This document shows positions 12,895 to 33,667 of a DNA stretch of 64,000 nucleotides, in pieces; positions within the stretch are counted from its first letter, which is position 1; each line of letters starts with the position of its first letter. This stretch comes from Chloracidobacterium sp. GTDB taxonomy: Bacteria > Acidobacteriota > Blastocatellia > Chloracidobacteriales > Chloracidobacteriaceae. Position numbers and translations under genes: made by a program. The notes beneath the pieces are model-generated. The model saw only the letters and a program-made list of their open reading frames with translations. It searched no databases and was not told the origin of the DNA. The stretch covers positions 1 to 64,000 of the forward strand of contig JANWUV010000017.1 in the NCBI GenBank assembly GCA_025057975.1. The letters are read 5' to 3'.

Positions 12895-12958
12895 CCCTAT
12901 CGCCGACAGGGTTCTGAAGAACATGGCGCTTTCTAGCCGTCTTAGCGTGGGGAAGAAG

Positions 12959-13041
12959 TGCCGGAGGAGAGACTCGAACTCTCACGGGGTTGCCCCCACC
13001 GGATTTTGAGTCCGGCGCGTCTACCATTCCACCACTCCGGC
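12959..13041 (-). tRNA. tRNA-Leu (anticodon CAA)
   Basis: An 83-nt class II tRNA. The acceptor stem pairs GCCGGAG with CTCCGGC and the discriminator base is A. The anticodon stem-loop CCGGA-CTCAAAA-TCCGG gives anticodon CAA, and a long variable arm (GGGG/CCCC) and a T-arm with GTTCGAGTC follow. CCA is not encoded. It lies just after the UbiB gene on the opposite strand and has its own promoter. Confidence 0.95.
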
Positions 13042-13284: not shown

Positions 13285-15174
13285 ATGAAAGCAAAGCTTG
13301 AGGAGGTTGCTCAAACGTATGGGATTGAAAACTGGGGCGCAGGGTACTTCAGCATCAACAAAAAGGGACACCTCGTGGTTCATCCCAGTGAATATGACCG
13401 ACGCGGCGCTGATGTCATGGAAATTCTTGAAGACCTCCAACGACGACGCATTCAGGCGCCGCTGCTGCTGCGGTTTCCACAAATCCTTGTCAACCAGATG
13501 AAAAAGTTGACCGGGGCCTTTCGCAACGCCATCAAAGAGTTTGGTTACAACGGCCGCTACTACGGCGTGTTTCCAATGAAGGTCAACCCGCGTCGTGAGG
13601 TTGTGGAAGAGTTTCTGCGCGCCGGTCGGCGGTATGACTTCGGAGTAGAAGTCGGCAGCAAGGCGGAACTGTACGCGGCGCTTGCGCACGAGCAATCGCC
13701 TGATTCGGTTCTCATCTGCAACGGCTTCAAGGATGAAAGTTACATCCGCTTGGCGTTGCTCGGCACGGAAATCGGTAAAAATGTCATCATTGTCATTGAG
13801 AAAATTGGCGAATTAGAAACCGTCATTCGGCTATCACAGGAAATCGGTATCCGTCCGTTGCTCGGCATTCGGGTCAAGTTGTACTCGAAAGGCAGCGGTC
13901 GGTGGGAAAAGTCAGGTGGTGAGTCGGCGAAGTTCGGCCTGACTACGAGTGAAATTCTGGAGGTCATTCGTGTTCTTCGTGAACACGAGATGGTTGATGA
14001 CCTTCGCCTGCTCCACTTCCACATCGGCTCACAAATTACCAGCATCAAGCGCGTCAAAAACGCCATCAAGGAAGCCGCACGCGTCTACGCTAAAATTCGG
14101 GCAATGAAAATCAATGTGGATTATCTCGACGTAGGCGGCGGGCTAGGCGTTGATTACGACGGTAGTAAGACCAGTTCGGAGTCATCGGCTAACTATACTG
14201 TTCAGGAGTTCGCCAACGACGTGGTGTACACCATCAAGAGCGTATGCGAGGACGAAGACGTGCCCGAGCCGCACATCATTACGGAATCGGGACGCATGCT
14301 GACTTCCTACCATGCGATCTTGGTAGCAAACATTCGCGCTGAAATTGAGACAGTTGTCGGCGAATATGAAAGTGTCAAAGTAGATGAAGATGATCCGCAG
14401 GTCATCGTTGAACTCAAAGATCTGTGCATGGGCATCAACTCAAAGAACTACGCCGAGTATTACCATGATGCTCTAGAGCACAAGGATGAGATGTACACGC
14501 TGTTCAATCTTGGCTTGATCTCACTGGAGGACCGCGCCAAGGGTGAGATTCTGTTCTGGGAAGTCTGTGAGCGGACAGCGAAGTATGCCCAGAATGATAA
14601 AAGCATGATTGATGAATACGAAGAGTTGCGCCAGATGTTGGCGGCCAAGTATCTATGCAACTTTTCAATTTTCCGCTCGCTGCCTGACAGCTGGGCTATT
14701 GACCAACTCTTTCCCATCATGCCGCTGCACAAACTGGACAAGCCCCCGACCGAACTGGCGACGTTGGTGGACATCACTTGCGACTCCGACGGCGTAATTG
14801 ACAAGTTTGTAGATTTGAAAGACATCAAAGAGACGTTGGAACTGCATCCGTTCAGAGGCGAGCCCTACTTTCTAGGGATTTTTCTAGTCGGCGCGTATCA
14901 GGAAGTCATGGGCAGCGGCCACAACTTGTTCGGCCCACTCAATGAGGCGCACATCATCATTGAGGACGAAGGCTACTTGATCACCAAGGTCGTCCCCGGC
15001 GGGACGCTAGGGGAAGCGGTTGAAACGGCCCGCTATGAACGGGCGGCGCTTCAGGAAAGCTTTGGCGAGTTAGCCGCTGAGCAGGTCAAGCGCGGCCGTC
15101 TTTCGGCCGAGCGGGCGAATGAGTTGTGCCGACAATACGAAAGCTATGTTTCCTGCTATACCTATCTGACCTGA
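13285..15174 (+). CDS. speA: Biosynthetic arginine decarboxylase
   Basis: 629 residues, the standard length. It converts arginine to agmatine with pyridoxal phosphate, the first step of polyamine synthesis by the agmatine route. An AGGGGAGG ribosome site precedes the ATG. The PLP lysine sits in VFPMKVNPR. The barrel motifs HFHIGSQ and LDVGGGLGVDYDG follow, and the second-domain catalytic Cys region is ITCDSDGVID. The next gene is a deoxyhypusine-synthase-like protein 101 bases downstream, so the pair may form a polyamine branch. No agmatinase or agmatine deiminase is in the window. Confidence 0.95.
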   Translation: MKAKLEEVAQTYGIENWGAGYFSINKKGHLVVHPSEYDRRGADVMEILEDLQRRRIQAPLLLRFPQILVNQMKKLTGAFRNAIKEFGYNGRYYGVFPMKVNPRREVVEEFLRAGRRYDFGVEVGSKAELYAALAHEQSPDSVLICNGFKDESYIRLALLGTEIGKNVIIVIEKIGELETVIRLSQEIGIRPLLGIRVKLYSKGSGRWEKSGGESAKFGLTTSEILEVIRVLREHEMVDDLRLLHFHIGSQITSIKRVKNAIKEAARVYAKIRAMKINVDYLDVGGGLGVDYDGSKTSSESSANYTVQEFANDVVYTIKSVCEDEDVPEPHIITESGRMLTSYHAILVANIRAEIETVVGEYESVKVDEDDPQVIVELKDLCMGINSKNYAEYYHDALEHKDEMYTLFNLGLISLEDRAKGEILFWEVCERTAKYAQNDKSMIDEYEELRQMLAAKYLCNFSIFRSLPDSWAIDQLFPIMPLHKLDKPPTELATLVDITCDSDGVIDKFVDLKDIKETLELHPFRGEPYFLGIFLVGAYQEVMGSGHNLFGPLNEAHIIIEDEGYLITKVVPGGTLGEAVETARYERAALQESFGELAAEQVKRGRLSAERANELCRQYESYVSCYTYLT

Positions 15175-15275: not shown

Positions 15276-16325
15276 ATGAGCAGAAAAGCAAAAGCGTCGC
15301 CCTACTTGAAACGACCCACTGATCCCATTGAGCTTGACCGTGACCGCAGTGTGGCCGGGCTGCTGTCCAAGTTTGAGGCGACTTCTTTTCAGGCCCGTAA
15401 CCTCGCCATCGCCCACAACATCTGGCTGAATATGCTCGAGGACGCCTGCACCATCGTGCTTGGGTTGAGCGGCCCACTCATTCCGGCGGGGATGCGGCGC
15501 TTGATTGCTTGGCTGATTCGTAACCGCTATGTAGATGTGGTCGTCTCCGATGGTTTGACAGTTTTTCATGACATTCATGAATCGCTCGGTCGCCAGCATT
15601 ATCAGGGCTCGCCGCTAACGTCGCCGAGCGAGTTGCAGGCGCACGGCATCGCCCGTCTGTATGACACGTTGCTGAGCGAAGAAGAAATTCAGGAGGCGGA
15701 TGAGTGGTTGCGGAGCTTTGTCAATATGCAGGACATGAGCCGTCCGTATGCCACCCGCGAGTTTCTCAACCTGCTTGGCCACGAGCTTTCGGAAATCGCC
15801 AATGAAGACGGCGTCCTAACGGCAGCGTACAAAGCGCGCGTTCCGGTCTTTTGTCCCGGCGTGACGACTTCGCCGCTGGTGCGCGGGATCGCAGCCGGGC
15901 GGATTGATCGCAAATCGCCGTTTTTGTTTGATGTGATTCAGGATGTGGTGGAAATGGCGCACGTGCTGGTCGGTTCCACCAACGTCGGCGCACTGTATTT
16001 TGGCTCTAGCCTCTGTAGCGACTTTGTACAGCAGGCTCAAGCGACCGGCACGGTGGTCAATGCGCGGTTGCGTCCGCTGAAGTACGTTGTGCACGTCACG
16101 CTGGACGGCCTGCACAGCGGTGGCGCGGTGTTGCATCCGCTGGAAGACGCCGACAACTGGAGTCGCGCAGCGAAGGAGCTACGGCTGGTGACAACATACT
16201 GTGATCCAACGATTGCGTTGCCGATACTGGTGACGGCGCTGGCGCAAAGCGCCGCACGCCAGATCAAAACCCGACGGAAGCCGACGTTCACAATCGGACG
16301 TGAACTTGTCATGAACGCCGCCTAG
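15276..16325 (+). CDS. Divergent deoxyhypusine synthase-like protein
   Basis: 349 residues. Alignable blocks include SGPLIPAGMRRLI, a segment around DGLTVFHDIHESLG, QGSP, VPVFCPG and YCDPTIALPIL. These match the bacterial deoxyhypusine-synthase-like family, some members of which make homospermidine from putrescine and spermidine using NAD. The active site is changed. The lysine that forms the enzyme-substrate imine (Lys329 of human DHS, in WGK) aligns with Arg297 in W295-S-R297. The Gly-rich GGG..KHH/KNH segment reads FGSSLCSDF. Bacteria have no eIF5A, so a hypusine role is excluded. Its position just after speA suggests a reaction on agmatine- or putrescine-derived amines, or a non-catalytic role. 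The family assignment is good; the function is open. Confidence 0.75.
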   Translation: MSRKAKASPYLKRPTDPIELDRDRSVAGLLSKFEATSFQARNLAIAHNIWLNMLEDACTIVLGLSGPLIPAGMRRLIAWLIRNRYVDVVVSDGLTVFHDIHESLGRQHYQGSPLTSPSELQAHGIARLYDTLLSEEEIQEADEWLRSFVNMQDMSRPYATREFLNLLGHELSEIANEDGVLTAAYKARVPVFCPGVTTSPLVRGIAAGRIDRKSPFLFDVIQDVVEMAHVLVGSTNVGALYFGSSLCSDFVQQAQATGTVVNARLRPLKYVVHVTLDGLHSGGAVLHPLEDADNWSRAAKELRLVTTYCDPTIALPILVTALAQSAARQIKTRRKPTFTIGRELVMNAA

Positions 16326-32602: not shown

Positions 32603-33667
32603 ATGCAAGGCATGAGCTTCCAGCGCCATCGAGAGGCCTGTTGGGACAAACCCGCTGATTCGCCCTCCGGCGTTGACCGGCCGGCGTTGGTTGTGACCTA
32701 CTCACACAGCATAACGTTCATTCCTACTTACAGCTGCGTCTTTGCTTGCGGTTACTGCGCCTTTGCGCGTCCAACGCCGCTCGCTGCGCTTTCAGACGCC
32801 GAAGCCTGCTTTGCGCGGGGCGCACGCGCCGGTTGCCGCGAGGCGCTGATTATGAGCGGCGAAGGCGTCATGAGCTTTCCTGCTATTCGGGAGCAGCTCA
32901 GCCGCTGGGGCTTTCAGGATTATCATGACTACCTGATCGCCGTGTGTCGGTTGGCGCTGAAGTGGGGCTTGCTGCCGCACATCAACATTGGCAATCAGTC
33001 CGAGGCTGAGTTGCGCCGCCTGCGTTCGGTATGCGCCTCGATGGGGATGATGTTGGAGACGACGAGTACGGCGCTGTTGCGTAAGCGCGCCCACCGACGT
33101 GCGCCGAACAAGCACCCGCAGCGGCGGTTGGCGACACTGGAAGCGGCAGGACGGGCGCGCATTCCGTTCACGACCGGACTGCTCATTGGCGTCGGCGAAA
33201 CGTGGCATGACCGGCGGCGGTCGCTGGAGACCATCGCCCAGCTGCATCAACGGTATGGTCACATTCAGGAAGTCATCATCCAGCCGTTCACGCCGCATCC
33301 GGGGACAGCCATGGCGGCTGATGTTGGACCCGACCTGCCAACCCTGGTCGCCGCCGTACGGTTGGCGCGCGCCATCCTGCCGGATGAAGTCGTCGTTCAG
33401 ATTCCTCCGAATCTAGTTGCGGACGCCGATGGCCGGCGGCAATTGCTACTAGCCGGGGCGCGCGATTTCGGTGGGATTTCACCGGAACGGGATCACGTCA
33501 ACCCCGACGAACCATGGCTTGCGCCGCAGCGTTACGCCGCCGAACTTGCCGCGTGGGGCTTCGTGCTGCGTCCGCGCTTGGCAGTGTACCCGCGCTTTCA
33601 GACGTCCGAATGGCTCGAACCGGAGGTGGAACGCGCAATAAAAAAGCTGGGTGCACTACCCGCTTAG
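32603..33667 (+). CDS. cofG: 7,8-didemethyl-8-hydroxy-5-deazariboflavin synthase subunit CofG
   Basis: 354 residues; ATGs at 32564, 32603 and 32612 are all possible, with no strong ribosome site. The radical SAM cluster motif is C-x3-C-x2-C in SCVFACGYC. Further CofG blocks are GLLPHINIGN, SMGMMLETTS, IPFTTGLLIGVGET, GHIQEVIIQPF and FGGISPERDHVNP. With CofH it builds FO, the deazaflavin chromophore of coenzyme F420 and of some photolyases, from tyrosine and a pyrimidine precursor. CofH is not in the window. The match is closer to CofG than to the menaquinone-pathway enzymes MqnC or MqnE. Confidence 0.88.
   Translation: MQGMSFQRHREACWDKPADSPSGVDRPALVVTYSHSITFIPTYSCVFACGYCAFARPTPLAALSDAEACFARGARAGCREALIMSGEGVMSFPAIREQLSRWGFQDYHDYLIAVCRLALKWGLLPHINIGNQSEAELRRLRSVCASMGMMLETTSTALLRKRAHRRAPNKHPQRRLATLEAAGRARIPFTTGLLIGVGETWHDRRRSLETIAQLHQRYGHIQEVIIQPFTPHPGTAMAADVGPDLPTLVAAVRLARAILPDEVVVQIPPNLVADADGRRQLLLAGARDFGGISPERDHVNPDEPWLAPQRYAAELAAWGFVLRPRLAVYPRFQTSEWLEPEVERAIKKLGALPA

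Follow-up and report, generated by a model that had tools for sequence, protein, structure and literature searches.

The chemistry of deoxyhypusine synthase (DHS) proteins is regarded as centring on a lysine imine. In the window, the whole stretch of 64,000 nucleotides of Chloracidobacterium DNA analysed here, a gene for a DHS-like protein lies behind an arginine decarboxylase gene, and an arginine stands on the column of that lysine. Whether the protein performs a different amine chemistry or has lost catalysis was the choice offered by a sequence-only reading of the locus, and it is the question addressed here. The two genes are:

13285..15174, plus strand: speA, biosynthetic arginine decarboxylase, which makes agmatine (TIGR01273, PRK05354).
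15276..16325, plus strand: DHS-like protein A, 349 amino acids, PF01916, with a predicted DHS fold and the imine lysine replaced by Arg297.

The coordinates and spacing given by that reading were right: the frame opens with an ATG at 15276 and closes with a stop codon ending at 16325 (349 residues), and 101 bases separate it from the end of speA at 15174. The speA product scored 721.5 bits with TIGR01273 (cut-off 624.1) and 827.9 bits with PRK05354. In a profile search A matched PF01916 over residues 29-321 with 212.7 bits (cut-off 27, E 9.1e-63). Eight NCBIfam models were matched below the cut-off of each, the best with 270.9 bits against 434; an A protein with the full motif set (L118) also fell just under this same cut-off, at 428.2. 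The best relatives of A in a PDB sequence search were DHS proteins, and its AlphaFold2 model (pLDDT 71.2, pTM 0.78) has the DHS fold, with Z 26.8 to 1dhs and an rmsd of 2.6 over 287 residues; residues 277-309 of the model are below pLDDT 50 and uninformative for the geometry of Lys300. The sole non-DHS protein among the 50 fold matches listed was the cyanobacterial arginine dihydrolase ArgZ (6juy; Z 14.0, 204 residues), another arginine/ornithine enzyme. Reading of the translation confirmed that the C-terminal YCDPTIALPIL is retained in A. A scan for promoters and terminators around the locus stayed at chance level. Upstream of speA a tRNA-Leu(caa) gene was found (window 12958-13041, minus strand), and the listed ORF that overlaps it is probably spurious.

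No match to A was obtained in the phages collection, and one scan of viral_contigs using a single protein as query gave nothing. Two scans of viral_contigs with alignments detected SpeY-like relatives at 18 and 19 loci, largely on the same contigs, with WGK kept in all 16 aligned. A phage origin of A was rejected on these grounds.

The name A is used for all orthologs of the window protein. Eighty-three full-length A proteins were read, 72 from the same class (Blastocatellia) and 11 from other classes, drawn from 58 relatives, 162 class genomes and 247 phylum genomes after a cut copy (L037) had been dropped; the class set is not exhaustive, family f4 being sampled (f1 to f9 are family codes from the genome search). 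The genus is group g1 of that search, the window genome and six relatives (Chloracidobacterium). Among records that bear a name, a Blastocatellia MAG and Chloracidobacterium sp. CP2_5A came nearest to the window, which places it in Chloracidobacterium or close by (Acidobacteriota). In the tree, A formed a clade separate from the SpeY-like proteins and from B, another DHS-like protein. One draft genome carries an A-type gene with a single in-frame TAA (G161:C322:9291-10172), a possible pseudogene or assembly error.

The lysine column lies in the following segment:

16158..16175, plus strand: W295-S-R297-A-A-K300, with Arg297 on the imine-lysine column and Lys300 as the proposed alternative.

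Direct reading confirmed W295-S-R297 in place of WGK. The distance from residue 297 to Asp310 equals that from Lys329 to Asp342 in human DHS, so that Arg297 sits on the Lys329 column; a lysine misaligned through a gap was rejected, since the W295-D310 spacing is also that of human W327-D342. The imine-forming lysine was missing, and Arg297 present, in 7/7 genus genomes, and chance or sequencing error was therefore rejected. When the column was mapped on the phylogeny, as the sequence-only reading had proposed, the loss proved real but not private to the window gene. Lysine was absent at 297 in 27 of the 83 A proteins (Lys 56, Arg 21, Ala 3, Gly 1 in the f8 protein L021, Val 1, Gln 1). It was present in all 11 A proteins outside the class, as well as in all 32 non-A DHS-like sequences of the tree (B, SpeY-like, the L002 paralog described below, and others). 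On a tree from which columns 297 and 300 had been left out, a minimum of six Lys/non-Lys changes was counted. Five are losses by parsimony, placed in f8, f7, f3, the genus and L137; the sixth, within f7, may be a regain. Three f7 proteins (L031, L038, L043) have Lys297 although they branch inside a clade with Arg297, and may have regained the catalytic lysine.

The other altered contact positions of the window protein are:

15549..15560, plus strand: residues 92-95, D-G-L-T, an NAD-contact segment that reads T-G-A-N in the 11 A orthologs outside the class.
15867..15869, plus strand: Thr198, replacing an Asp kept in 11/11 proteins outside the class; human Asp238, reported as an NAD contact (excerpt of PMC7432094).
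15882..15884, plus strand: Arg203, in the column of human Asp243 (polyamine anchor); Arg in the nine f1 proteins read.
16002..16025, plus strand: residues 243-250, G-S-S-L-C-S-D-F, in place of G-G-G-x-P-K-N-F.

Contact columns were taken from Pyrococcus DHS for NAD (PMC7432094) and from human DHS for the polyamine (PMC7226451), as given in excerpts of these sources, and the 14 counted are those invariant in the 11 A proteins outside the class. Eight of the 14 are changed in the genus (T92D, A94L, D198T, G245S, K248S, N249D, E291D, K297R), each to the same residue in 7/7 genomes. Among the nine NAD columns invariant outside the class, five are changed (T92D, A94L, D198T, G245S, N249D), and the sequence of A thus departs from the NAD contacts of a DHS enzyme. 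The window protein differs also by T276L, where 9/11 proteins outside the class have Thr. The alteration of the Gly-rich and KHH/KNH segments, described earlier from the window alone, stood up to comparison: G-S-S-L-C-S-D-F contrasts with GGGxPKNF in 10/11 A proteins outside the class and SGGTPKNF in one. On the human Asp243 column the outside A proteins have Met or Ile, and two of the nine f1 proteins with Arg203 have the lysine. Since G93, H98, Q253, D277, W295 and D310 are kept (G93, H98, D277 and D310 being NAD contacts), a pocket remains.

Counted by group majority, 8 of the 14 contact columns are changed in the genus, 2 in the sister genera (a comparison of two proteins), 4 in f3, 4 in f7 and 3 in f8 (the lysine included in these three families), 3 in f5, 1 in f6, 3 in f9 and 5 in f4. 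The change of 8/14 contact columns in the genus compares with 31/82 for the other invariant columns (Fisher p 0.24); targeted loss at contact residues is not significant, and the result therefore points to divergence of the protein at large, from which the active site is no longer exempt. At 48 columns that A (outside the class), B and SpeY-like proteins conserve in common, the proportion changed was 41% in the genus, 37% in f4, 26% in the f1 sister genera, 20% in f3, 16% in f5, 15% in f7, 8% in f8, and 4% in f6 and f9. Family f4 keeps Lys297 in 35/36 proteins yet has lost other motifs, which indicates that the parts lost differ from line to line. The f4 proteins (e.g. L048-L057) are a mirror image of the window protein, with the lysine kept, GGGxPKNF replaced by forms like GSxxSQxM, and TGAN by SGxV or similar.

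The frame of A is open, without stops, in 7/7 genus genomes. Between the window genome and the six others, NG86 dN/dS was 0.031-0.055 for A and 0.009-0.018 for speA; for the neighbouring PTPS, acetyltransferase and aroDE genes it was 0.044-0.084, 0.064-0.107 and 0.119-0.156, respectively, all values being rough because synonymous distances exceed 1. In all six pairs A ranked above speA and below the three other genes. Of 19 altered columns 16 are invariant in the genus, against 77% of all columns.

The pairing with speA, which had been noted for the window gene, is conserved, but as a feature of the class and not as something special to this gene. The speA gene lies upstream of A on the same strand in 70/70 testable class loci (the other two of the 72 are cut by a contig end), with gaps of 23-196 bases and one of 521. 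In the flanks fetched for the 11 A loci outside the class speA stood upstream on the same strand in none, and 10 of these 11 genomes gave no full-length match to the window-type SpeA. SpeA does not need A in general, since three f2 genomes (G010, G011, G013) have SpeA and A was not found in them.

Ureohydrolase copies were found by similarity to the L047 gene (TIGR01230 agmatinase, 227.6 bits, cut-off 174.3). Such a gene follows A within 650 bases in 20/70 class loci with enough flank (two of the 72 end too soon) and in 7/11 loci outside the class; it is directly downstream in all five f8 genomes read. No ureohydrolase lies beside A in the genus. One PF00491 protein was found per genus genome; that of the window scored as an arginase (305.9 bits, cut-off 227.6). 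The ureohydrolase partner of a caldomycin synthase is missing downstream of A. A PF04371 search of 30 relatives detected an AguA-type protein in 18. A ureohydrolase stands beside A in 0/17 AguA genomes with a readable downstream side (one over only 632 bases), against 5/7 readable genomes that have A and lack AguA; A and AguA are both missing from four of the 30. This split suggests that either of two routes can serve to remove the guanidino group. Among 25 of these genomes with a readable column 297, whose lineages are not independent, loss of the lysine was counted in 13/17 with AguA and 2/8 without.

An AguA-type protein occurs in 7/7 genus genomes, one of them partial. In the window genome its best NCBIfam match is agmatine deiminase, below the cut-offs (253.5 against 483; 231.8 against 381.8), and its gene adjoins an AguB-type gene (305.5 bits, cut-off 410.25). 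SpeD and SpeE gave no match in the seven genus genomes, and an HSS/CASDH-type search of three of them gave weak PF03435 matches only (best 28 bits, cut-off 25.1). In G346, a genome outside the class, A has as its neighbour on the opposite strand a gene resembling agmatine deiminase (L128:1796-2878; 276 bits, under the 483 cut-off). The window also encodes a CofG-type FO synthase subunit at 32609-33664, plus strand (NF004884, 375.8 bits, cut-off 209).

The window genome has a further DHS-like paralog, L002 (L002:1453-2427; G000:C2:238252-239226), which with its orthologs retains WGK in 7/7 genus genomes and would be the likeliest triamine enzyme of the genus. This paralog is 75-81% identical in seven genomes of f1, f2, f4 and f6 outside the genus, while the other 16 of the 30 genomes searched gave no close copy; it is unusually conserved and patchy, and was perhaps spread by transfer. 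The idea that the lysine of A was lost only where a second DHS-like copy compensates was dropped, because most class genomes have at least two copies, among them some whose A keeps the lysine.

Several known systems bear on these results. According to PMC10981699, caldomycin synthase (CdmS) of Thermus acts on agmatine and is followed in the pathway by a ureohydrolase, giving homospermidine. As with CdmS, A has the bacterial DHS fold, and many orthologs lie beside SpeA, an agmatinase-like ureohydrolase, or both; CdmS is reported to keep its lysine (Lys299), unlike the window protein, which scored 172.8 bits with the caldomycin / bis(guanidino)azanonane synthase model NF002699 (cut-off 500). Like SpeY of cyanobacteria and the PRK00770 homospermidine proteins, A belongs to the bacterial DHS-like homospermidine branch. 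The Trichormus protein L138 passes NF002699 at 592 bits and the Blastocatellia paralog B (L083) passes NF001980 at 574 bits; in contrast to the window protein, GGGxPKNF and the lysine are both intact in the B and SpeY-like rows read. With the deoxyhypusine synthases of human and Pyrococcus A shares the fold and motif order, whereas the equivalents of human Lys329, His288, Lys287, Asp238, Asp243, Gly283 and Gly284 are replaced; those of His288 and Asp243 differ also in the lysine-keeping A proteins of other classes.

The human K329A variant is described, in an excerpt of PMC10042821, as catalytically dead, with nearly all spermidine dehydrogenation lost, and as still binding NAD, spermidine and eIF5A; a DHS can therefore apparently lose its chemistry and keep binding. 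In trypanosomes a lysine-less DHS paralog is reported to raise the activity of the catalytic DHS 3000-fold (excerpt of PMC3663545). Like this prozyme (DHSp, 6dft_B), A is a lysine-less DHS fold with a lysine-bearing paralog, L002, in the same genome; unlike it, A has lost the lysine repeatedly in one speA-tied ortholog line. The homospermidine synthase (HSS) of Blastochloris viridis operates, in the account given by part of PMC4725965, with neither an active-site lysine nor an enzyme imine. It is a precedent for lysine-free polyamine coupling, but its fold is unrelated to that of A, and since this other fold works in such a way, lysine loss alone is no proof of inactivity.

Taken from the sequences, the A protein of Chloracidobacterium probably has a non-catalytic job or a different chemistry, under strong selection. 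The reading preferred here, at a probability of about 0.55, is that of a conserved pseudoenzyme with the DHS fold, belonging to the polyamine pathway, for which we infer the loss of activity, the partner and the ligand. The ancestor would have been an NAD- and lysine-dependent DHS-like synthase, probably downstream of agmatine and working with an agmatinase-like ureohydrolase towards homospermidine. Homospermidine synthesis from agmatine or putrescine was probably the ancestral role because the A proteins outside the class all keep the lysine and seven of their 11 genes directly precede an agmatinase-like ureohydrolase gene. In Chloracidobacterium the imine lysine and the KN pair would then have been lost, together with the Gly-rich loop and the NAD contacts at TGAN and the Asp238-type position, with replacements fixed or nearly so, and A would have been retained as a folded, strongly constrained pseudoenzyme. 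Its present job would most likely be that of a binding or regulatory subunit, affecting either SpeA and agmatine flow or the remaining lysine-bearing DHS-like enzyme, for which the dead DHS paralog of trypanosomes offers a parallel. Between the two possibilities named at the outset, lost catalysis fits the genus sequences better than different chemistry, with 8/14 contacts and 5/9 NAD columns changed; because several NAD contacts have gone together with the lysine, the pseudoenzyme is favoured for the window protein.

A rival reading is a catalyst without an enzyme-bound imine: once NAD has oxidised the first amine, the resulting imine or aldehyde would react directly with the second, the course proposed for the unrelated bacterial HSS. 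This would agree with five parsimony losses in a gene that stayed behind speA, with the few contacts changed in f3, f7 and f8, with the ureohydrolase directly downstream in the five f8 genomes, and with the reported lysine-free Blastochloris enzyme (PMC4725965, in part). For the window protein it appears unlikely: NAD binding is doubtful where 8/14 contacts are changed, including Asp198 and the Gly-rich loop, and the near absence of spermidine dehydrogenation reported for human K329A (PMC10042821, in part) speaks against it as well. In f8, lysine-independent coupling would be a serious option, because beyond the lysine few contacts have been lost there and the ureohydrolase gene still adjoins A. 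A wider proposal, which we regard as rather doubtful, is that Blastocatellia evolved lysine-independent coupling in the DHS fold. The imine step would have become dispensable after the joining to speA, and Arg, Ala, Val, Gly or Gln would have replaced the lysine on about five occasions, with 10 to 11 of the 14 contact columns kept in f3, f7 and f8 and the ureohydrolase retained beside A in f8. Chloracidobacterium would be the far end of the series, and its arginines 203 and 297, which occupy old polyamine-site columns, would suggest a new, possibly anionic ligand.

In a more specific form of the preferred pseudoenzyme reading, A and L002 would form a mixed tetramer to which A contributes the subunit without the lysine, like DHSp/DHSc. 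The presence of the WGK paralog in 7/7 genus genomes and the reported location of DHS active sites at subunit interfaces (PMC7432094, in part) are consistent with this, as is the Z of 24.4 between the model of A and the trypanosome regulatory subunit, though that to human DHS is 26.8. We consider it quite unlikely, since the A and L002 genes are deeply diverged and far apart in the window genome and also in the two-contig genome G001, a lysine-bearing A coexists with the L002 paralog in G017, G019 and G027, and the nine f3, f7 and f8 genomes searched gave no close L002 copy and carry B instead. The proposal of the sequence-only reading that Lys300, three residues on, now forms the imine is very improbable. 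Lys300 is found in 23 of the 27 lysine-less A proteins against 19 of the 56 with Lys297, and no residue other than Lys or Arg occurs there in the 27. However, the other four have Arg300, and the large raw difference is discounted because it tracks relatedness: five independent pairs with and without the lysine, on well supported branches, went the same way 1.2 times and the other way 0.9 times on average, no association in a test with little power and too few pairs for significance. The unchanged distance to Asp310 implies, moreover, that the loop at 297-300 has not shifted, and the sequences do not support Lys300 as the replacement. Hardly any weight is given to a decaying remnant that persists through its operon position; the unspared active-site columns, the missing ureohydrolase beside A and the arginase as sole PF00491 protein of the window genome would suit it, but a dN/dS of 0.031-0.055 at synonymous distances above 1, a frame open in 7/7 genomes and altered residues that are mostly fixed argue against decay.

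Neither the fold nor the family is new, nor is the notion of a dead DHS paralog. In the titles and abstract starts of the open-licence literature searched, with one general Acidobacteria genome paper (PMC5900883) checked by excerpts, nothing was found on protein A, on the polyamines of Chloracidobacterium or on a lysine-less bacterial DHS, nor did that literature yield a bacterial DHS-like ortholog that is linked to speA and has lost the lysine repeatedly. The label "deoxyhypusine synthase" may mislead for A-type proteins. An ortholog series with about five losses of the lysine, behind the gene for the likely substrate, is a natural test of the need for lysine in amine coupling, and the same series could show how a polyamine enzyme becomes a non-catalytic subunit.
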